Shown: positions 72 through 11,372 of the stretch, piece by piece | Layout: each line of letters opens with the position of its first letter | Numbering within the stretch: position 1 is the first letter of the stretch | From: a virus | Length of the DNA stretch: 24,205 nucleotides | Strand: one strand, 5' to 3' | IMG/VR virus record: IMGVR_UViG_3300031208_000019 | Location: 1-24,205 of that record | The notes under the pieces: model-generated | Told to the model about the DNA's origin: nothing | The model's input: only the letters and a program-made list of their open reading frames with translations | Databases searched by the model: none | Translations under genes and position numbers: made by a program

Positions 72-149
72 AAAAAAAGCCTTAGACGCTTGTGCTAAAT
101 ATCTTTAACTTATTGGAGATATTTGAGTATGAGATCTAAGGCTTTTTTT
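72..149 (+). promoter_or_regulatory. Nested inverted repeats enclosing the RBS and start codon of the GT9-like gene
   Basis: AAAAAAAGCCTTAGA (72-86) is perfectly complementary to TCTAAGGCTTTTTTT (135-149), a 15-bp stem with a 48-nt loop. Inside the loop a second perfect repeat, AAATATCT (97-104) with AGATATTT (117-124), makes an 8-bp stem whose right arm takes the AG of the GGAG Shine-Dalgarno (115-118). The ATG (129-131) lies between the two right arms. The outer right arm is coding (codons 3-7 of the gene) and ends in seven T. It could be a translational switch in read-through RNA, or an unusual terminator for the upstream gene. Structure is seen in the sequence; function is inferred. Confidence 0.6.
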
Positions 150-1088
150 GTGAATGGAGGATACGGCAGAGTAGTTTCTAGTATTCCTGCGTTTGAATTG
201 TACGAAAAAGAATCAGGTGACGAAGATTTTATTATTATATGTGAGGGCGGAACTGATGCCTTCAAAGGACATCCGTCTCTCGACGACAGGACCTATGATG
301 TTTGGCACAAGAAGCTGTTTGAAGATAAAATAAAAGATAAAGATGTAGTGACTACCGAGCCCTACCGTATTTGGGAATACTACAATCAGAAATGTAGTAT
401 TGCTCAAGCATTTGATATTGCAATTAACGGAAAAGGCCTCAGAGAAATCCCCAAACCAGAAATATATTTGTCTAATCAAGAAATGATAGACGGGCAAGGT
501 ATTATTGACGAAGTAAAAAAGAAGCTTAAAAAAGACAAAGTGATAATAATTCAGCCGTTTGGTCGAGGAATAGGAGAGCATAACGGACAGTTGACTGACC
601 CGTCAGCACGAAGTATAAGACTACCTGATCTTAAAGAAATAGTTAAAAAGTTGCAAAAAGAAGAGTTTGCTGTTATAATGATGAGTGAGTTTAAATTCGA
701 CTTTAAATCAAAATCTGATTTAAAAGACGAATTTGCAATTCCAGAAGGTGTAGGTCTTAGACAATGGGCGGCTGCAATCAAATTAGCTGATCACTTCTTA
801 GGATGTGATAGCGTAGGGCAGCATCTAGCAGCAGCAGTAGGCACAGAATCTACAATAGTTTTAGGCTCAACCTTCCCAGTGAACGTTTCGTACCCCGACA
901 ACGACTTATTCGAAGTAGTCGACCTTGGAATGCACTCTAGAGTATACGATCCTATAAGAATTACAATAGATGAATCTAAGACTCGTAAAAATGAAAATCT
1001 AATAACAATGAACAAAGAAATTATACAATACGTTGTTAAGAGAGTATTAAGAACCCCAAAAGACGAGGAAGAAAATAACGGTGAATAA
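129..1088 (+). CDS. Glycosyltransferase family 9-like protein (putative heptosyltransferase)
   Basis: A 319-residue protein with the two-domain look of GT-B family 9 enzymes (ADP-heptose:LPS heptosyltransferases). The N-terminus has GGYGRVVSSIPAFELYE (10-26), matching the family's 'gD.v...P....l' opening. The second domain begins at VIIIQPFGRGIG (128-139), and the donor-site region is LADHFLGCDSVGQHLAAAVG (209-228), with the D217-S218...H222-L-A-A pattern typical of GT9, followed by VLGSTFP. GT9 enzymes transfer heptose from ADP-heptose in the cytoplasm, usually to the lipid A-core acceptor; here the acceptor is unknown. ATG at 129 is preferred, with GGAG 10 nt upstream; an in-frame TTG at 123 is only 4 nt from GGAG. 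The gene overlaps the next by 8 nt, so the two are probably translated together. ADP-heptose genes 2-5 kb away support a heptose donor. Confidence 0.72.
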   Translation: MRSKAFFVNGGYGRVVSSIPAFELYEKESGDEDFIIICEGGTDAFKGHPSLDDRTYDVWHKKLFEDKIKDKDVVTTEPYRIWEYYNQKCSIAQAFDIAINGKGLREIPKPEIYLSNQEMIDGQGIIDEVKKKLKKDKVIIIQPFGRGIGEHNGQLTDPSARSIRLPDLKEIVKKLQKEEFAVIMMSEFKFDFKSKSDLKDEFAIPEGVGLRQWAAAIKLADHFLGCDSVGQHLAAAVGTESTIVLGSTFPVNVSYPDNDLFEVVDLGMHSRVYDPIRITIDESKTRKNENLITMNKEIIQYVVKRVLRTPKDEEENNGE

Positions 1089-2859
1089 TAAGACAGGATA
1101 CATTGCAGCAATTGCTCGAGGGCACAATGCCGGAGTTTGTCTTCTAAAAGACGGAGTGGTTGTTTTCTCTATTGAAGAAGAAAGGCTAAGTCGTCAAAAA
1201 TACGACGGCGGTCCTTATGCATCTATGATGAAAATCTTAGAGTATACTGACAAAATTGATTACTTGGTAGTTGCGCATACACAAAACCTGCATGATACTG
1301 CTGGAAAAGTTGATTTTACTGGAGACGACATATATACTGGTTTAGCCAGAAAGCTAAACCTAATTGATCGAAAAGCAAACTTGCATGAGCACCCTCAGGT
1401 AATTGATCTTAGTCACATGCATCATAAACTGCATGCTGCGTGTGCGTTTTATAATTCAGGGTTTGAGACAGCAACTGCCGTTATTGTTGACGGCGCAGGA
1501 ACGTTTATTCCTTTACAAGTAGGCGAAGAGACAATCACCGGGTGGGAAACAGAAACATTGTTCGAATGTGAATACCCGGCAGAAATAAAAACAGTATACA
1601 AACACATAGGTACAAGAGGCCCTACTCCTACTTCGTTTATGAAAGCGTACGACAACGATAACGAATACTCTGCACTAGTTACTGAGCATGCTGGAATAGT
1701 TAAAGTCTACGAAGCAGTAACAGAATACTGCGGTTTTAGTTCTATCGAAGCCGGCAAAACTATGGGATTGTTTCCGTACGGCAAGGAAGATGTCACATTG
1801 CCGGAATTGTTTATCGACACTGACGTTGGTGTTATTTCAAACAGAAATACAATAGTTCCTAATTACCCAAATGGTGCAATAGTAAATCAAGGAATATCTA
1901 AAACACTAACGCAGTTTGACGAAGATGTTGATATTACTACTCTTGAAAATAGACGGAACCTAGCGTGGAAGTGTCAAACTGATACTCAAGCACAGGTTGC
2001 TAACCTTATTAAAGAAGCAGTAAAAATCACTGGAAATAAAAATGTTGTCCTTAGTGGCGGGTACGGACTAAACTGTGTTGCAAACTACTACTATTTAGAT
2101 GCGTTAAAAGACAGCGGAATTAATTTATACGTAGAACCAGTATCCAACGACGCTGGCACTGCGATGGGTGCTGCACAGTTAATGTATCGTACTATAACAA
2201 AGGACCAAACGGTTTCTGATCCTCAAGATACAGTATACCACGGACCTTCTTATAACTTTAGCAATGATGATATTACAGAAACCGCAATAAAATATAATGC
2301 ACAGATAGAAGACGCTTCACACGAAACGCTAGTAGATTTAATTACTAGCAAGAATATTGTTTCTGTGTTTCAAGGGAGAAGTGAGAATGGCCCCCGGGCA
2401 TTAGGTAACCGGAGCTTGGTGTTTGATCCTACATTTACAGACGGCAAGGATTTTGTTAATGGAATAAAGCGTCGTGAATACTTTCGTCCGTTTGCAGGTT
2501 CTATTCTTGAGGAAGATGTGCATGAATGGTTTGATTTGCGAGGAATGAAAAGTTCTCCCACAATGATGTATGCAGTGAATTGCCAACCAGGCATTGAAGA
2601 AAAAATCCCTGCTATTATCCACGTAGACGGAACTTGTCGCATCCAAACAGTTAATAGAGAACAAAATCCTCACTACTATGATATTATTAAAGCATTTAAA
2701 GAAAGAACAGGTGTACCTATTGTTTTCAATACTAGTTTTAATTTAGGAGGAGAGCCGTTAGTAGAAACTCTTGACGATGCACTGTGGACACTTCAACAAA
2801 GTGATATTGAGTATTTGTATATGCCCGAATACGGAAAGCTTTTAACTATTAAGAATTAA
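1081..2859 (+). CDS. O-carbamoyltransferase, NodU/CmcH/TobZ family
   Basis: A full-length 592-residue family member that transfers a carbamoyl group from carbamoyl phosphate (through carbamoyl-AMP) to a hydroxyl of a sugar or other acceptor. The N-terminal Kae1-like domain shows GHNAGVCLLKDG (14-25), IEEERLSR (31-38), the metal-site HMHHKLHAA (112-120), VDGAG (136-140), GKTMGLFPYG (225-234), LSGGYGLNCVAN (324-335) and EPVSNDAGTAMGAA (352-365). The C-terminal YrdC-like domain has QGRSENGPRALGNRS (431-445), KRREYFRPFA (463-472) and VFNTSFNLGGEP. The start is GTG 1081, overlapping the preceding stop, with GAGGAA 10 nt upstream. Known members act on nodulation factors, aminoglycosides, cephamycins and P. 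aeruginosa LPS-core heptose (WapO); phage members that carbamoylate 5-hydroxymethylcytosine are also described. The substrate cannot be read from sequence. No key motif is missing. Confidence 0.93.
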   Translation: MNNKTGYIAAIARGHNAGVCLLKDGVVVFSIEEERLSRQKYDGGPYASMMKILEYTDKIDYLVVAHTQNLHDTAGKVDFTGDDIYTGLARKLNLIDRKANLHEHPQVIDLSHMHHKLHAACAFYNSGFETATAVIVDGAGTFIPLQVGEETITGWETETLFECEYPAEIKTVYKHIGTRGPTPTSFMKAYDNDNEYSALVTEHAGIVKVYEAVTEYCGFSSIEAGKTMGLFPYGKEDVTLPELFIDTDVGVISNRNTIVPNYPNGAIVNQGISKTLTQFDEDVDITTLENRRNLAWKCQTDTQAQVANLIKEAVKITGNKNVVLSGGYGLNCVANYYYLDALKDSGINLYVEPVSNDAGTAMGAAQLMYRTITKDQTVSDPQDTVYHGPSYNFSNDDITETAIKYNAQIEDASHETLVDLITSKNIVSVFQGRSENGPRALGNRSLVFDPTFTDGKDFVNGIKRREYFRPFAGSILEEDVHEWFDLRGMKSSPTMMYAVNCQPGIEEKIPAIIHVDGTCRIQTVNREQNPHYYDIIKAFKERTGVPIVFNTSFNLGGEPLVETLDDALWTLQQSDIEYLYMPEYGKLLTIKN

Positions 2860-2865
2860 TAAATA
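2858..2865 (+). promoter_or_regulatory. T4-type late promoter box (AATAAATA)
   Basis: AATAAATA overlaps the TAA of the carbamoyltransferase gene and lies 24 nt before the ATG of the next gene, with an AAAGGAA Shine-Dalgarno (2878-2884) between. It matches the ATAAATA core found before nine other gene starts here. Predicted start of transcription is about 2871. Confidence 0.55.
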
Positions 2866-2889
2866 CTCTAACAATGAAAGGAATGTTAG

Positions 2890-3321
2890 ATGTTTGACAT
2901 AGGAAATATTTTTAAAGTAGGCAAAAATAACTCTTTATTAGTAAAGAACAACGGTTCGTTTTCGCATGACGGGCCGTTTGTTTATGTACTTGAAACTACA
3001 CTGTTAGATCGTTGGTATATAAACAACTTCTCTACTGTAGAATATTCGATAAGTGTAGACTTAAACACTCAGAACAAAGAGTTTATTAAGGTAGTGGCTA
3101 TTGCTACACTTGACACAGTGGTGTTGACAGAAATATTCCGCACTTCTACTAATAGAAGGTTAGTAGAAGTGTCAGCTACAGTAAACAGCAGTTATGTAGA
3201 TATACTAATTACTCCTACAGAAACTGCCGATGACTCTTCAACTATTAAAGACAATCTTGGTTCAAAGGTTATATATACTGCTAGTTACTTTGGTACGCAA
3301 AATCCACTATCTCTCTCATGA
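2890..3321 (+). CDS. Small phage protein of unknown function, probably beta-rich and structural
   Basis: A 143-residue protein that I do not recognise as a characterised family. It is rich in alternating hydrophobic/polar stretches typical of beta strands (FVYVLETTLLDRWYI, EYSISVDLN, FIKVVAIATLDTVVLTEIF, VEVSATVNSSYVDILITPT), with no membrane segment, signal peptide or catalytic motif. A clear AAAGGAA Shine-Dalgarno and a late-type promoter box precede the ATG, which suggests late expression and so a virion or assembly role; this is inference. Its TGA shares the six bases TCATGA with the convergent HAD phosphatase gene. Confidence 0.75.
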   Translation: MFDIGNIFKVGKNNSLLVKNNGSFSHDGPFVYVLETTLLDRWYINNFSTVEYSISVDLNTQNKEFIKVVAIATLDTVVLTEIFRTSTNRRLVEVSATVNSSYVDILITPTETADDSSTIKDNLGSKVIYTASYFGTQNPLSLS

Positions 3322-3951
3322 AGACTTACTAGTCACATATTCGTAAAACGAGAATAGATCATCAAATATTATAGTCTTTTTGTTTAATTCACGATATGTA
3401 AATTTCTTAAGTTCTTTCTCGGTATCGGCCCCGTGTCCTGTCCTTACTAGCACAGGTGTTGCTTTGATTTTACTAGCAGCTTTCAGATCAGTCAACTTAT
3501 CACCTACGTAATACCCACTAGAAAATTTAATATTCTTGTGTTTCTGCTCGTCCTCGGCTTTTTTAAACATGCCTAGGTTAGGTTTAGCGTAGTAATCATC
3601 TTTTTGGTTAGTGATAGAAAAATAGATTCCGTCTATGCTAGGGCATCCAGCTGCTCCTAAAAGTTTCAGCATGTGTAGGTGTACCTTATTAACATCTTCT
3701 TCTGTACACATTTTTTTGAATATTCCTGCTTGATTAGTAATAATAACAATTCCAAACCCTGCTTTTCTAAGCCCAGCAATTGCTTCTATACTTCGGTCAA
3801 CAGGAACAAACTCGCTAGGATGTTTGACGTAGTCACTTCTATTTTCGTTTATGACGCCGTCCCGATCTAATCCTATCACACACTTGGTCGGAATATAATC
3901 AATACTATGCATGTCTACTATGAGATCGTTACTCCAATGTATATTAACCAT
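3316..3951 (-). CDS. gmhB: HAD-superfamily phosphatase, GmhB-like (D,D-heptose 1,7-bisphosphate 7-phosphatase)
   Basis: A 211-residue HAD phosphatase of the GmhB/histidinol-phosphatase group. Motif I is LDRDGVIN with D29 and D31 as nucleophile and acid/base; motif II is IITNQAGI (70-77); the KPNLGMF segment (K123) is motif III; GDKLTDLKAA (D151, D155) is motif IV. The expected role is removal of the 7-phosphate from heptose 1,7-bisphosphate, between the two HldE reactions. The usual zinc-binding Cys/His set of bacterial GmhB, just before the KPxxG motif, is absent (YFSITNQKDDYYAKPNLG). ATG 3951 is chosen because it overlaps the cupin stop by 8 nt; an in-frame ATG at 3975 would add 8 residues, and ATG 3912 is also possible. 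It is the last gene of the minus-strand operon. Specificity is inferred mainly from its hldE/hldD neighbours. Confidence 0.8.
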   Translation of the reverse strand: MVNIHWSNDLIVDMHSIDYIPTKCVIGLDRDGVINENRSDYVKHPSEFVPVDRSIEAIAGLRKAGFGIVIITNQAGIFKKMCTEEDVNKVHLHMLKLLGAAGCPSIDGIYFSITNQKDDYYAKPNLGMFKKAEDEQKHKNIKFSSGYYVGDKLTDLKAASKIKATPVLVRTGHGADTEKELKKFTYRELNKKTIIFDDLFSFYEYVTSKSS

Positions 3952-4342
3952 TAGTTTTTGTCTTCTGTGAATCACCGGGCATTATTCGATAATTGTCTGC
4001 AATGCTGTCTGGTGTACTTACTTCAGTAACACTTGATCCGTCTTCTAGTGCAATTAATTGATGAGGCAGAAGTGGTGGATTGCGCCAAGTATCGCCTTCT
4101 TTTAGCTCAACTTCGACTAGCTCAGCTGTTTCTGTTTTAATGTACAGTAGTTTAAATCGACCGTTATTAACAAACCACGATTCGTCTTTCTCTTTGTGAA
4201 AATGCATGCTAAACTTAGCACCAGCTTTGTCGAACACCATTATCTTGCCACAATACTTATCGTTAGTTGCCCATATCAGCTCGTATCCCCATTCTTTTTT
4301 TACAAATCCGTGTAGCCGTTCCGTATTATTATTTTGAATCAT
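3944..4342 (-). CDS. Single-domain cupin, probably sugar-nucleotide or sugar-phosphate related
   Basis: A 132-residue single cupin. Motif 1 fits the G-x5-H-x-H-x4-E-x6-G pattern exactly (G41, H47, H49, E54, G61), and motif 2 has GDTWRNPPLLPH with H94, so the 3-His/1-Glu metal site is complete. The sequence (HGFVKKEWGYELIWA at the start) resembles the cupin half of type II phosphomannose isomerases and small cupins found in polysaccharide gene clusters. The ATG overlaps the end of hldD by 14 nt and the stop overlaps the gmhB-like gene, so it is translationally coupled inside the heptose gene block. No ADP-heptose pathway step is known to need a cupin, so its job is open: isomerase, epimerase, binding or regulatory protein. 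Confidence 0.82.
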   Translation of the reverse strand: MIQNNNTERLHGFVKKEWGYELIWATNDKYCGKIMVFDKAGAKFSMHFHKEKDESWFVNNGRFKLLYIKTETAELVEVELKEGDTWRNPPLLPHQLIALEDGSSVTEVSTPDSIADNYRIMPGDSQKTKTNG

Positions 4343-5153
4343 TAATGTAGTCCTCGATAGATGTCCAGTTCATATCTATTGTAGTGTTTATCTTAGATAG
4401 GTTTGCGCAGGTGTAGGATTGGTATTGTTGTTTTAAGTTATCTGGCATAGGTACATACTTTATAATTGCATTATGTTTTTCAGCTATTGCTCTCGCAACT
4501 GTTTCAAAACTGATAGCAGTTCCTGTACCAACGTTAAAGATTCCTTGTGCATTGCTATTGAGCATCAAGCTATGCACTTGACAAACGTCCTCAACGCATA
4601 CAAAGTCTCTTTTATATAGATCTGAATTATTAAATAGCGTGATAAACTTGTTGTCTTTTGCTTGCTTAGTAAACTTGGTATAAGGACTTGCCTGATCACC
4701 CTTGTGATCTTCACCCGGGCCGTATACGTTGAAGTATCTAAATCCTTTTATGTTTATGTTAAACTCGTTAATATGTTGTATAACATATCGATCGAACAAA
4801 TATTTTGACCAAGCGTACGGCGACTGTGGTTGCAGCTTATCGTCCTCATTAAAATGTGTAGTAGTAGTCCCGTATACACTTGCACTTGACGCATATTGAA
4901 AATCAACGCCGAGTTGATTACACTCGTTAATCAGCCGTTTACTGAATTCAAAATTCTGTTCTAAGATCTGATCTACGTCTGTATAGGTAGTGTAACTGAT
5001 TGCTCCTAGATGTATAACTTGGTCGTATCTCTCGACTGGCGGGAACGCCGATTGTTTGTACTCCCAACCTTCTACTGCATGACCTTGTTGTAGTAGATGA
5101 GCTACTAGATTTTGTCCTATGAATCCGTGATGTCCTGTAACTAATATTCTCAT
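4329..5153 (-). CDS. hldD: ADP-glyceromanno-heptose 6-epimerase-like SDR enzyme (HldD)
   Basis: A 274-residue extended short-chain dehydrogenase/epimerase. The NAD(P)-binding glycine motif is VTGHHGFIG (G7, G10, G13); the catalytic YxxxK is Y113-AWS-K117, with the Ser/Thr element at YASSASVYG (87-95). FRYFNVYGPGEDHKG (138-152) is the part that points to HldD (compare the family's FNVYGP.E.HK), supported by YKRDFVCVEDV and FNVGTGTAIS. HldD converts ADP-D-glycero- to ADP-L-glycero-beta-D-manno-heptose, the last step of the pathway. It is shorter than E. coli HldD (310). Its ATG overlaps the hldE stop as ATGA, typical of coupled translation. UDP-sugar epimerase activity is the main alternative. 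Confidence 0.87.
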   Translation of the reverse strand: MRILVTGHHGFIGQNLVAHLLQQGHAVEGWEYKQSAFPPVERYDQVIHLGAISYTTYTDVDQILEQNFEFSKRLINECNQLGVDFQYASSASVYGTTTTHFNEDDKLQPQSPYAWSKYLFDRYVIQHINEFNINIKGFRYFNVYGPGEDHKGDQASPYTKFTKQAKDNKFITLFNNSDLYKRDFVCVEDVCQVHSLMLNSNAQGIFNVGTGTAISFETVARAIAEKHNAIIKYVPMPDNLKQQYQSYTCANLSKINTTIDMNWTSIEDYINDSK

Positions 5154-6292
5154 TTGCTGGCCTTAATTATAGTTGTAGTAGAAAAGTTTTTTAGTGTTGG
5201 GAAGATATACACGTCTGCTAAATTATTGCCTACAACCTGCTCTACGGTGTAGTCTCCGCCTTTGACAATAATACCAGGGCGTATCTGTTTGATGAGATTA
5301 TAAGGAGTATCCTCGTCAAATATGAAAGCACTATGTACCCAAGGCAGTATCTTTATTTGTTCTAGCCTAGTCTGCTGATTATTTATTGGTCTACTATTAC
5401 CTTTTAATCGTTTAACACTATCGTCGGAGTTAATACCTACTATTAACTTTTTGCCTAGACTGCTAGCCTTTTTAAGTAATTCTAAATGACCTTGATGTAA
5501 AATATCAAACACACCGTTGGTAAAAACAACAGTATTGTGTATATCACTAGGTTGCAATATATAGGTTCCTATATGCTTTACACTTTCACTTGCTGCTTCT
5601 ACTGCAATTTCGAGACTTAGTTGATAATCTTTATTTTGAACAAGCGCATAAACAAATGCGGCAACAAAACAATCACCTGCGCCGGTAACGTCGTTTACTT
5701 CAACCTTTACTGGGTTGACAGTATATTCAACATCGTCGATTTGCGCAATTAGGCAGTTATCAGCATCAGTAACTATAATATTGCTACCCCAACTAGAAAA
5801 TCCTAGTTCCTTATATTCTTTTTTATTTGGTTTTACTAACCATGCTCCTTTGTATCTACTTGCTATTCGTTTAGGATCTACAATAATTTTACATCCGGCT
5901 TGATTTATTAAGTCGATAATTTCTTCTACTAAATCTAGTGCTCCTTTATTATAGTCGCTGAGTATTACGTAATCGTAAATACTCAGCTCCTTGGTTCGTA
6001 GATCTCTTAGCAGCTTGCTGCTATCGGCAATGTGATCGTCGTCTATTCGTGATACATAATGATTATCACATATTACTCTAGTCTTTATACTCTTAATGTT
6101 GTTAGGGTTATATAAGTCAACATCAACACCCAAGCTTTTTAGATTTTCGTAAACTAGCCCTGCGCCGCCTAGTGTCTCTACTATTTTTTGTTGTTTAACA
6201 ATAGGAACTGGTGCTTCTGGACTAAGTCTTTCCGAGGTGCCGTAGATATATCTGTCGATTATGATATCGCCTATAACTAGTACTTTTGTCAT
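5150..6292 (-). CDS. hldE: Compact bifunctional heptose-7-phosphate kinase / heptose-1-phosphate adenylyltransferase (HldE)
   Basis: A 380-residue fusion. The N-terminal PfkB/ribokinase domain (about 1-245) has GDIIIDRYIYG (8-18), ERLSPEAPVPIV (21-32), LGGAG, the VDPKR strand and the anion hole/catalytic NDVTGAGDCF (200-209, base D207). The C-terminal nucleotidyltransferase domain (about 254-380) has FTNGVFDILHQGHL with HxGH at H266-H269, VGINSDDSVKRLKG, VKGGDYTVEQVVG and the terminal STTTII. It phosphorylates D,D-heptose 7-phosphate at C1 and, after GmhB, adenylylates heptose 1-phosphate. It is about 100 residues shorter than E. coli HldE; much of the loss follows GGAGLVYENLKSLGVDVDL, in the kinase domain. 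Both active-site motifs are retained. The ATG at 6292 lies 15 nt after the Nudix stop; the Shine-Dalgarno is weak (AGG), so coupling is likely. Confidence 0.92.
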   Translation of the reverse strand: MTKVLVIGDIIIDRYIYGTSERLSPEAPVPIVKQQKIVETLGGAGLVYENLKSLGVDVDLYNPNNIKSIKTRVICDNHYVSRIDDDHIADSSKLLRDLRTKELSIYDYVILSDYNKGALDLVEEIIDLINQAGCKIIVDPKRIASRYKGAWLVKPNKKEYKELGFSSWGSNIIVTDADNCLIAQIDDVEYTVNPVKVEVNDVTGAGDCFVAAFVYALVQNKDYQLSLEIAVEAASESVKHIGTYILQPSDIHNTVVFTNGVFDILHQGHLELLKKASSLGKKLIVGINSDDSVKRLKGNSRPINNQQTRLEQIKILPWVHSAFIFDEDTPYNLIKQIRPGIIVKGGDYTVEQVVGNNLADVYIFPTLKNFSTTTIIKASK

Positions 6293-6307: not shown

Positions 6308-6748
6308 TTAGTTATCAAGTAGATTGATAGTTTGGAATACTGTTTCGAGTTTTCTTAGATTTATTTTACTTTGAAGAGTATTGCGTAACCCGTGATGCAA
6401 CGGCTTAGGCCATTTATTAAAACTACACCAAGCGTATCCGTTATGTTCCTCATTTAATACCGGTATAAACTCTGAATCAATAATACACAAGTACGTATGA
6501 AAGTAAAATCTATCGTCTACACTGACGAAGCTTTCTAGCGGTAACGTCTTTTTGATAAACGGAAGTTGTCCGATTTCTTCTTGTATCTCGCGTAGAAGCC
6601 CTTCGAACGGCGTTTCGGAGTTTTCATTTGTTCCTCCGACTAACCCCCAAAGGTCAGACTGGCGGCCGCGTGTTCTGTGCAGAAAAAGAAACCGATGTGT
6701 GTCTAGTGTATAAAACAGTGCTCCGCTACAAACTATTTTGTTGCTCAT
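6308..6748 (-). CDS. Nudix hydrolase
   Basis: A 146-residue single-domain Nudix protein. The Nudix box G-x5-E-x7-REUxEExGU is perfect: G39, E45, R53-E54, E57-E58, G60. The segment HRTRGRQSDLWGLVGG before the box is typical of Nudix enzymes that act on nucleotide-linked substrates. The reaction would be hydrolysis of a nucleoside diphosphate linked to another group; NTP cleaning, RNA cap removal, or NDP-sugar (even ADP-heptose) cleavage are all possible and not separable by sequence. A GAAGGA Shine-Dalgarno is 11 nt before the ATG. It lies between gp15 and hldE, with 48 nt and 15 nt gaps, and no promoter box or terminator was seen in those gaps. Confidence 0.92.
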   Translation of the reverse strand: MSNKIVCSGALFYTLDTHRFLFLHRTRGRQSDLWGLVGGTNENSETPFEGLLREIQEEIGQLPFIKKTLPLESFVSVDDRFYFHTYLCIIDSEFIPVLNEEHNGYAWCSFNKWPKPLHHGLRNTLQSKINLRKLETVFQTINLLDN

Positions 6749-10508: not shown

Positions 10509-11054
10509 TTGATTAAAAAACCTAAACTAATGGTTATCGGACACGCACAACACGGTAAAGATAAGGCGTGCGAGGCACTAGTCAAATACTACAACTTAGC
10601 ATACGAATCTAGTAGCCATTTTGCTGCCCGTAAATTTATCTTTGACGAAATCAAAGATCATTACAAATACAACACTATAGAAGAGTGTGTAGCAGATCGT
10701 GTTAACCATAGACGGATGTGGTATGACATGATCTCTAATTACAACTACCCTAACCCTGCCCGCCTTGGCAAAGAACTGTATAAGGAAAATGACATCTATT
10801 GCGGTCTTCGACACAGACGTGAATTCAATAGTATGAAAAACCAAGGTGTGTTTGATTGCGTAATATGGATAGATCGCAGCGATCACATGCCGCCTGAAGA
10901 TAAGTCTAGCATGACGCTCGAACCATGGATGGCAGATTTTATAATTGACAATAACGGAACTGAAGCAGAGCTGGAAATCAGAGTATGTGAACTAATGGAC
11001 TACCTGTTGCCTGCAAGATACGGGCTATTGTCTGCCTCAGTGATCAGGCGTTAA
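10509..11054 (+). CDS. P-loop nucleotide kinase-like protein (possible dNMP kinase)
   Basis: A 181-residue cytoplasmic protein beginning with a strand and a P-loop of the form GxxxxGKD: LMVIGHAQHGKDKACEALV (G11, G16-K17-D18). The rest is helix-rich (HFAARKFIFDEIKDHY, ECVADRVNHRRMWYDMI) followed by VFDCVIWIDRSDH, which looks like the second core strand of a P-loop kinase. The P-loop with Asp after Lys and the overall size fit phage deoxynucleoside monophosphate kinase-like proteins (T4 gp1 type); specificity is not proven. The start is TTG 10509, 8 nt after AGGAGA; the in-frame ATG at 10530 has no RBS of its own. It has its own early promoter, unlike its neighbours, fitting a role in nucleotide supply. 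It overlaps the convergent HNH gene by 18 bp. Confidence 0.75.
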   Translation: MIKKPKLMVIGHAQHGKDKACEALVKYYNLAYESSSHFAARKFIFDEIKDHYKYNTIEECVADRVNHRRMWYDMISNYNYPNPARLGKELYKENDIYCGLRHRREFNSMKNQGVFDCVIWIDRSDHMPPEDKSSMTLEPWMADFIIDNNGTEAELEIRVCELMDYLLPARYGLLSASVIRR

Positions 11055-11372
11055 GTCGCCCTGTCGCCAGCGTACACCCGTTTTTTGCAGGATACGCTGG
11101 CAGTTAGCGCACACAGTCTTCAAGTTGTTTGGACGGCAACTATTTAGATCTCCGTCAATATGATACACGTCAAACTGCTCCGGAAAATTAGACCTAAACC
11201 CGCACTTCTCACAGTATTGCTTTTTCTCGTATTTGGCCTGTTTCCACTTGGGTATTCCGTGCCCTACGCCGTTGCGCTGACATGTCCCGCATAGCTTACG
11301 ATAATATGTTTTTCCTTCTTTTTTATAATTTATAGCAGCTACTCGCTGTCCGCACTTGCATAATGGTCTCAT
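11037..11372 (-). CDS. HNH endonuclease-like zinc protein
   Basis: A 111-residue basic protein with four Cys pairs: C5/C7, C28/C31 (LCGTC), C54/C57 (YCEKCGF) and C88/C91 (VCANC). The core HNH signature is YHIDGDLNSCRPNNLKTVC, with H71, D73 and N82-N83. The last HNH His is replaced: CANCQRI, where CxxCH is usual, so catalytic competence is uncertain. Such small free-standing HNH genes are common in T4-like phages as homing endonucleases or packaging-related nickases; this one could be either. It lies on the opposite strand to both neighbours, between the early kinase gene and gp18. Upstream, GTAAATA lies 4 nt before the ATG, one mismatch from the late box. Confidence 0.8.
   Translation of the reverse strand: MRPLCKCGQRVAAINYKKEGKTYYRKLCGTCQRNGVGHGIPKWKQAKYEKKQYCEKCGFRSNFPEQFDVYHIDGDLNSCRPNNLKTVCANCQRILQKTGVRWRQGDLTPDH

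Follow-up and report, generated by a model that had tools for sequence, protein, structure and literature searches.

The ADP-heptose pathway requires a sedoheptulose-7-phosphate isomerase, and GmhA is the enzyme that usually fills this role. Here, we describe a set of heptose genes in a 24,205-base stretch of viral DNA (IMG/VR record IMGVR_UViG_3300031208_000019, positions 1 to 24,205; hereafter, the window), a fragment of a T4-like marine phage with genes for terminase, single-strand binding protein and neck and tail proteins (gp13, gp14, gp15, sheath and tube). The closest described counterpart is the cyanophage “lipopolysaccharide (LPS) gene” cluster T4-GC 302-308, which occupies the same genomic zone and comprises genes for a GT9-like transferase, a carbamoyltransferase, HldE-C, HldE-N, a small HAD protein, a cupin and HldD. 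Sullivan et al. (2010) reported that T4-GC 304, 305, 307 and 308 co-occur, leaving open whether they are functional or “stuffer DNA” (PMC3037559). Additionally, Tang et al. (2024) found viral nucleoside diphosphate (NDP)-heptose enzymes and showed that they make ADP-heptose; in the commentary on that work (PMC11461863), the phosphatase is said to be absent in viruses and a cupin isomerase is not mentioned. A further relevant enzyme is TibC, a protein O-heptosyltransferase that modifies adhesins with ADP-heptose as the donor (PMC4358343).

The cassette is therefore already known, and the same gene set is found in P-SSM2, S-CAM1, S-CAM3, S-SSM7 and Sf-FS3, between the tail-fibre genes and downstream virion genes; the new points are the exchange of GmhA for a cupin and the placement with tail-fibre genes. 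The window departs from T4-GC 302-308 in that HldE is fused, a true GmhB takes the place of the small HAD, the pathway operon runs on the opposite strand and Nudix, gp15 and gp14 genes form the surroundings; from the viruses of Tang et al., as the commentary presents them, it departs in carrying the phosphatase. Since the gene set is conserved across many phages, a chance explanation is implausible. The data support a phage ADP-heptose route accompanied by a heptosyltransferase-like and a carbamoyltransferase gene, as an earlier note on this DNA had proposed; the heptose genes that it named are all in place and intact, as judged by family assignments, PDB sequence matches and E. coli alignments, the GT9 assignment being a remote one. 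On the minus strand, from 6292 to 3316, HldE, HldD, the cupin (which that note did not mention) and the GmhB-type phosphatase make up an operon of closely overlapping genes, in which HldE and HldD share 4 nucleotides and HldD and the cupin 14. The GT9-like and carbamoyltransferase frames on the plus strand overlap by 8 nucleotides. The features are as follows.

129-1088, plus strand: GT9-like (remote heptosyltransferase-fold) glycosyltransferase, phrog_8954; start ATG at 129, stop codon at 1086-1088
1081-2859, plus strand: NodU/TobZ-type O-carbamoyltransferase, phrog_1601 (Pfam and PDB matches)
2890-3321, plus strand: member of a family of small proteins of about 140 amino acids, probably a tail or virion domain protein (neighbour clustering)
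3316-3975, minus strand: GmhB-type HAD phosphatase (heptose 1,7-bisphosphate 7-phosphatase), Zn loop absent; likely start ATG at 3951
3944-4342, minus strand: cupin of 132 amino acids with a 3His/1Glu metal site, proposed sedoheptulose-7-phosphate isomerase replacing GmhA
4329-5153, minus strand: HldD, ADP-glyceromanno-heptose 6-epimerase (family and E. coli alignment)
5150-6292, minus strand: HldE, fused heptose-7-phosphate kinase/heptose-1-phosphate adenylyltransferase of 380 amino acids with a shortened kinase domain
6308-6748, minus strand: Nudix hydrolase upstream of HldE (Pfam match)

We propose that this phage can make ADP-L-glycero-D-manno-heptose with enzymes of its own. The cupin, in the place of GmhA, would convert sedoheptulose 7-phosphate into D,D-heptose 7-phosphate; HldE would phosphorylate C1 and the GmhB-type phosphatase would take off the C7 phosphate, after which HldE would adenylylate the sugar and HldD would epimerise C6. 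The GT9-like transferase would then attach the heptose to the tail-fibre or adhesin proteins of the phage itself, and the coupled carbamoyltransferase would cap it with a carbamoyl group. That ADP-heptose is made for such carbamoyl-heptosylation of the phage's own fibres is a proposal to which we give about even chances. The family of the cupin, its metal site, its exchange with GmhA elsewhere and the tail-fibre position in relatives may be read from the sequences, and around them we infer the activity of the cupin, the donor sugar, the acceptor and the order of carbamoylation.

Enzymes of the heptose pathway

As far as sequence can establish them, the identity and intactness of HldE, HldD, the phosphatase and the carbamoyltransferase are shown. 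HldE is identical to its E. coli counterpart at 149 of 380 residues and keeps both domains, with the kinase GAGD and nucleotidyltransferase HxGH motifs; its scores lie under the NCBIfam equivalog cut-offs. HldD is identical to E. coli HldD at 109 of 273 residues, matches PDB entry 1eq2 (E 5e-51) and conserves the catalytic pair, the equivalents of Tyr140 and Lys178 (YAWSK and HKG align with E. coli), scoring 241 bits against TIGR02197 for a cut-off of 274.6. The phosphatase finds its best PDB match in heptose bisphosphate phosphatase 4pnh (E 4e-21) and has, besides its similarity to GmhB, the HAD-IIIA DxD motif; the alignment shows that it lacks the Cys loop by which E. coli GmhB binds Zn. From its fold and context, we conclude that it works like GmhB. 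The three identifications made in the earlier note consequently stand.

The window has a true GmhB where cyanophages have the small HAD, an apparent phosphatase replacement. This mini-HAD is common in other T4-like phages too, and it is its position that suggests a heptose-phosphatase role. The database label “phosphoheptose isomerase”, carried for instance by L159:13027-13371 (P-SSM2 gene 311, phrog_1238) in our set of loci, was considered for it and rejected as probably wrong: the protein has a DxDGT HAD motif and matches the capsule phosphatase EcbF/BcbF.

The cupin family and GmhA

The metal site of the cupin is formed by His47, His49, Glu54 and His94, the His/His/Glu/His arrangement on a double-stranded beta-helix that places it in the cupin superfamily. 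This site, together with Lys33, Lys52, Glu107 and Asp116, belongs to the signature common to phage and cellular cupins; the tree of the family (123 columns, 100 rows) left about half of its forks open, and the comparison was used for these shared residues only. The predicted structure is confident (predicted local distance difference test, pLDDT, 90), and its fold matches include cupin phosphoglucose isomerase, D-lyxose isomerases, CapF and KdgF. It is a beta-barrel with no match to the SIS fold of GmhA, and its match to the Pfam family of type II mannose-6-phosphate isomerases, MannoseP_isomer, is under the cut-off (E 4.7e-4; 20.8 versus 23.6 bits). The label “cysteine dioxygenase” given to L159:13352-13708 (phrog_7851), a cupin of this family, is probably wrong as well.

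In phages, the cupin accompanies HldE. At 32 of the 33 phage loci that have 3 kb of sequence on each flank, no more than 5 kb separate it from HldE, and all 31 cyanophage records that carry HldE and exceed 5 kb contain it. Of 50,697 phage records, 35 have the cupin, 31 of them with HldE; in the annotated ones among the other four, it has a kinase or nucleotidyltransferase as its neighbour. HldE occurs without the cupin in six phage records, five of them non-cyanophage and one a 4-kb fragment. When GmhA was searched for with the SIS_2 and TIGR00441 models, six complete cyanophage genomes and 19 more large records gave no GmhA-family (SIS_2) match, and a further 48 phage records (67 other phage records in all) gave a single match, which was under the cut-off. 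The E. coli GmhA query matches 13 phage records, with no cyanophage among them. The suggestion of the earlier note that the host supplies GmhA or that its gene is elsewhere in the genome is thus disfavoured: the six complete relatives have no GmhA-type gene, the LPS of cyanobacteria is free of heptose, and the operon contains a cupin that takes the place of GmhA in other genomes.

A similar exchange is observed in cells. When genomes were scanned with the cupin alignment, most of the relatives came from DPANN archaea and candidate-phyla bacteria; many adjoin genes for HldE kinase, adenylyltransferase, HldD, GmhB and WaaC/F-like proteins, and none of 80 cellular cupin loci had a GmhA match. In one archaeal phylum, the same 194 genomes were searched three times; 37 had a strong HldE-C match, and of these 20 had a strong GmhA match, 14 the cupin, none both and three neither (one-sided Fisher p = 1.1e-7, with relatedness not corrected for and genomes that are probably incomplete). 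The operon in loci L254 and L255 consists of a waaC/F-like gene, the cupin, HldD, HldE-N and GmhB/HldE-C; L258 has the same operon with GmhA in the slot of the cupin, and so does L253, where the waaC/F gene is not in view. Likewise, the kinase-cupin fusions of L247, L248, L249 and L261 mirror the kinase-GmhA fusions of L250 and L251, and L246 is a phosphatase-cupin-adenylyltransferase fusion. Examples among these operons and fusions were confirmed with Pfam and NCBIfam.

The cupin therefore occupies the same operon slot and has the same fusion partners as GmhA, a SIS-domain isomerase, although the two folds are unrelated and the cupin is not a member of the GmhA family. Because of this genome context (mutual exclusion, operon slot and fusions), we consider that the cupin replaces GmhA and is probably a GmhA-independent sedoheptulose-7-phosphate isomerase, a conclusion that derives from context and not from fold. 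A literature search on cupins with sedoheptulose 7-phosphate found nothing on point.

The GT9-like transferase, the carbamoyltransferase and their neighbours

The GT9-like protein matches Pfam (E 0.0045) and NCBIfam models under their cut-offs, and when its profile is compared with that of true GT9 enzymes, the probability is 96.4% (E 1.4e-9). The family is conserved, with a mean column identity of 56% over 40 sequences, and remote from characterised GT9 enzymes. A profile search of the family against PDB sequences returned spurious matches only and was discarded, a fold comparison being needed. With Foldseek, the model (pLDDT 90) has as its best matches the GT9 protein 3tov, WaaF and TibC (template modelling scores of 0.54-0.61 on the query), and WaaC follows at 0.45-0.49. 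The comparison with WaaC and WaaF for which the earlier note had called thus yielded a predicted heptosyltransferase (GT-B) fold, and the equivalents of the WaaC donor-site residues Asp261 and His266 are invariant in the family, as Asp227 and His232. The likeness to the TibC/AAH autotransporter heptosyltransferases is one of GT-B/GT9-like fold alone, at 10-12% identity, and the phage protein differs from them in its context and in its coupled carbamoyltransferase.

The carbamoyltransferase has both Carbam_trans_N and Carbam_trans_C over the Pfam cut-off and matches 7xb6 (E 1.6e-54) and TobZ (E 2.5e-40), and its earlier identification as an O-carbamoyltransferase is well founded. Among WapO, TobZ and NodU, the protein compared directly was TobZ, not WapO. 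Of 87 GT9 loci, 86 also have the carbamoyltransferase gene. A conserved protein of about 306 amino acids is encoded between the two at L154:10959-11876 and in 17 further loci, 18 of 80 in all; it has no Pfam or PHROG match, and its first residues, FTFGCSFTNY, look by eye like those of SGNH hydrolases.

Clustering of the neighbours covered 80 GT9 loci, the annotation comprising one family of long proteins and smaller families. Of these loci, 78 have a tail-fibre-assembly-like gene near GT9 and 75 have Gly/Cys-rich adhesin-like genes there; very long proteins resembling tail fibres are encoded nearby in 49 and 57. It is because of this location among tail-fibre and adhesin genes that we propose that the pair acts on fibres. 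The family of the open reading frame at 2890-3321 follows the pair in 43 of the 80 loci, and the larger proteins (528 amino acids) that this frame also matches are themselves weakly matched to tail-fibre PHROGs. Ten loci have a 2OG-Fe(II) oxygenase gene immediately upstream, and such genes are found beside or inside the cassette in L143:4339-4950, L012:12994-13623, L156 and L160; these enzymes could possibly hydroxylate the acceptor residue before glycosylation.

Other observations concern the surroundings. The Nudix gene was considered as a member of the cassette and rejected: it accompanies gp15 in loci without HldE and is probably not part of it. In a second group of T4-like phages (L019-L052 and L054), HldE-HldD-cupin stands beside gp13-gp15 and Nudix, and no GT9, carbamoyltransferase or recognised phosphatase gene is nearby; of this group, two loci read in detail, L025 and L036, have a gene of about 200 amino acids and no assigned function between HldE and HldD. 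Between gp13 and the sheath gene, the window has an HNH-endonuclease-like and a deoxynucleoside monophosphate kinase-like reading frame (11037-11372 and 10509-11054), and L012 is similar. Finally, L183, a contig titled Rhodobacteraceae MAG NAT686, holds a full cyanophage-type cassette and is probably a phage contig that was binned into a bacterial genome.

Alternative readings and their meaning

Several results weigh against a cupin isomerase that serves fibre glycosylation, and they have to be considered together with the explanations that compete with it. In the fold search, oxalate decarboxylase and quercetinase outrank the sugar isomerases, and the fold therefore does not fix the function of the cupin; with a loose GmhA threshold, three genomes hold both genes (p 1.1e-4), and several genomes with cupin-linked operons have a GmhA-like gene elsewhere. 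The host GmhA might then provide D,D-heptose 7-phosphate and the cupin might perform a further epimerisation or a nucleotide-sugar decoration, in keeping with the functional diversity of cupins and with CapF, KdgF and oxalate decarboxylase as nearest folds. A decorating enzyme, however, would be expected to co-occur with GmhA, whereas the two exclude each other among HldE genomes and share operon position and kinase fusion; moreover, the GmhA model has no match in Synechococcus elongatus, searched among the control genomes. We consider this other role unlikely. An improbable explanation, too, is that the two halves of the locus are unrelated neighbours, the GT9-like enzyme using another donor and ADP-heptose going to another acceptor. 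Each half does occur without the other, as a minority of the GT9 loci have HldE at a distance of 10 kb or less and most of L019-L054 have HldE-HldD-cupin without the pair; because HldE is missing near most GT9 loci, another donor or a host supply must be allowed. Additionally, the catalytic Asp13 of WaaC is replaced by an invariant Arg14 in 98 of 98 GT9-like sequences, so the donor, acceptor and activity of the enzyme are putative, and the family-model matches given above are under cut-off. Nevertheless, the halves lie side by side in cyanophages and in phages of the window type, with both HldE architectures, the closest folds are heptosyltransferases and, of the twelve GT9 records that exceed 100 kb, seven match HldE-C at 1e-30 or better (another does so weakly and four not at all).

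Regarding the target, the earlier note had left host LPS, virion proteins and DNA side by side. The tail-fibre position favours a virion protein, with the limitation that the window starts at the GT9 gene and that this placement is known from relatives. Alternatively, the pathway and the pair could alter the host surface (LPS or another polysaccharide), blocking superinfection or grazing. This is possible, if somewhat unlikely: LPS is the classical GT9 substrate, superinfection exclusion has been proposed for cyanophage “LPS genes” (PMC2984593, PMC9602691), and HldE genes of P-TIM68 and S-T4 are found amid other glycosyltransferase genes, but at least 75 of the 80 loci have tail-fibre or adhesin-like genes close to the pair, a single transferase with no flippase or polymerase would make a poor polysaccharide kit, and cyanobacterial LPS offers no heptose or Kdo (3-deoxy-D-manno-oct-2-ulosonic acid) core as acceptor, the LPS of marine Synechococcus being without both (PMC4515613). 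The argument from heptose-free LPS covers cyanophages only. As for DNA, T4 glucosylates its own, a precedent with no sequence pointer here; the window shows no gene for base modification, and the heptose genes sit with tail-fibre genes and not with DNA metabolism. That part of the note is unsupported, and heptose on phage DNA is very improbable.

Fibre glycosylation by way of the cupin can also be stated in its broadest form, namely that the cupin is an unrecognised GmhA-independent phosphoheptose isomerase of phages, DPANN archaea and candidate-phyla bacteria, and that T4-like phages use it for carbamoyl-heptosylating their own tail-fibre adhesins in heptose-free hosts. We offer this tentatively, as it may well not hold in all its parts; a literature search on cyanophage heptosyltransferases or phage ADP-heptose fibre glycosylation found nothing on point. 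If true, it would fill the first step of heptose synthesis in phages, archaea and small-genome bacteria without GmhA. The cyanophage genes that have been called LPS genes or stuffer would gain a function, glycosylated receptor-binding fibres, and the system would represent a phage counterpart of adhesin heptosylation.

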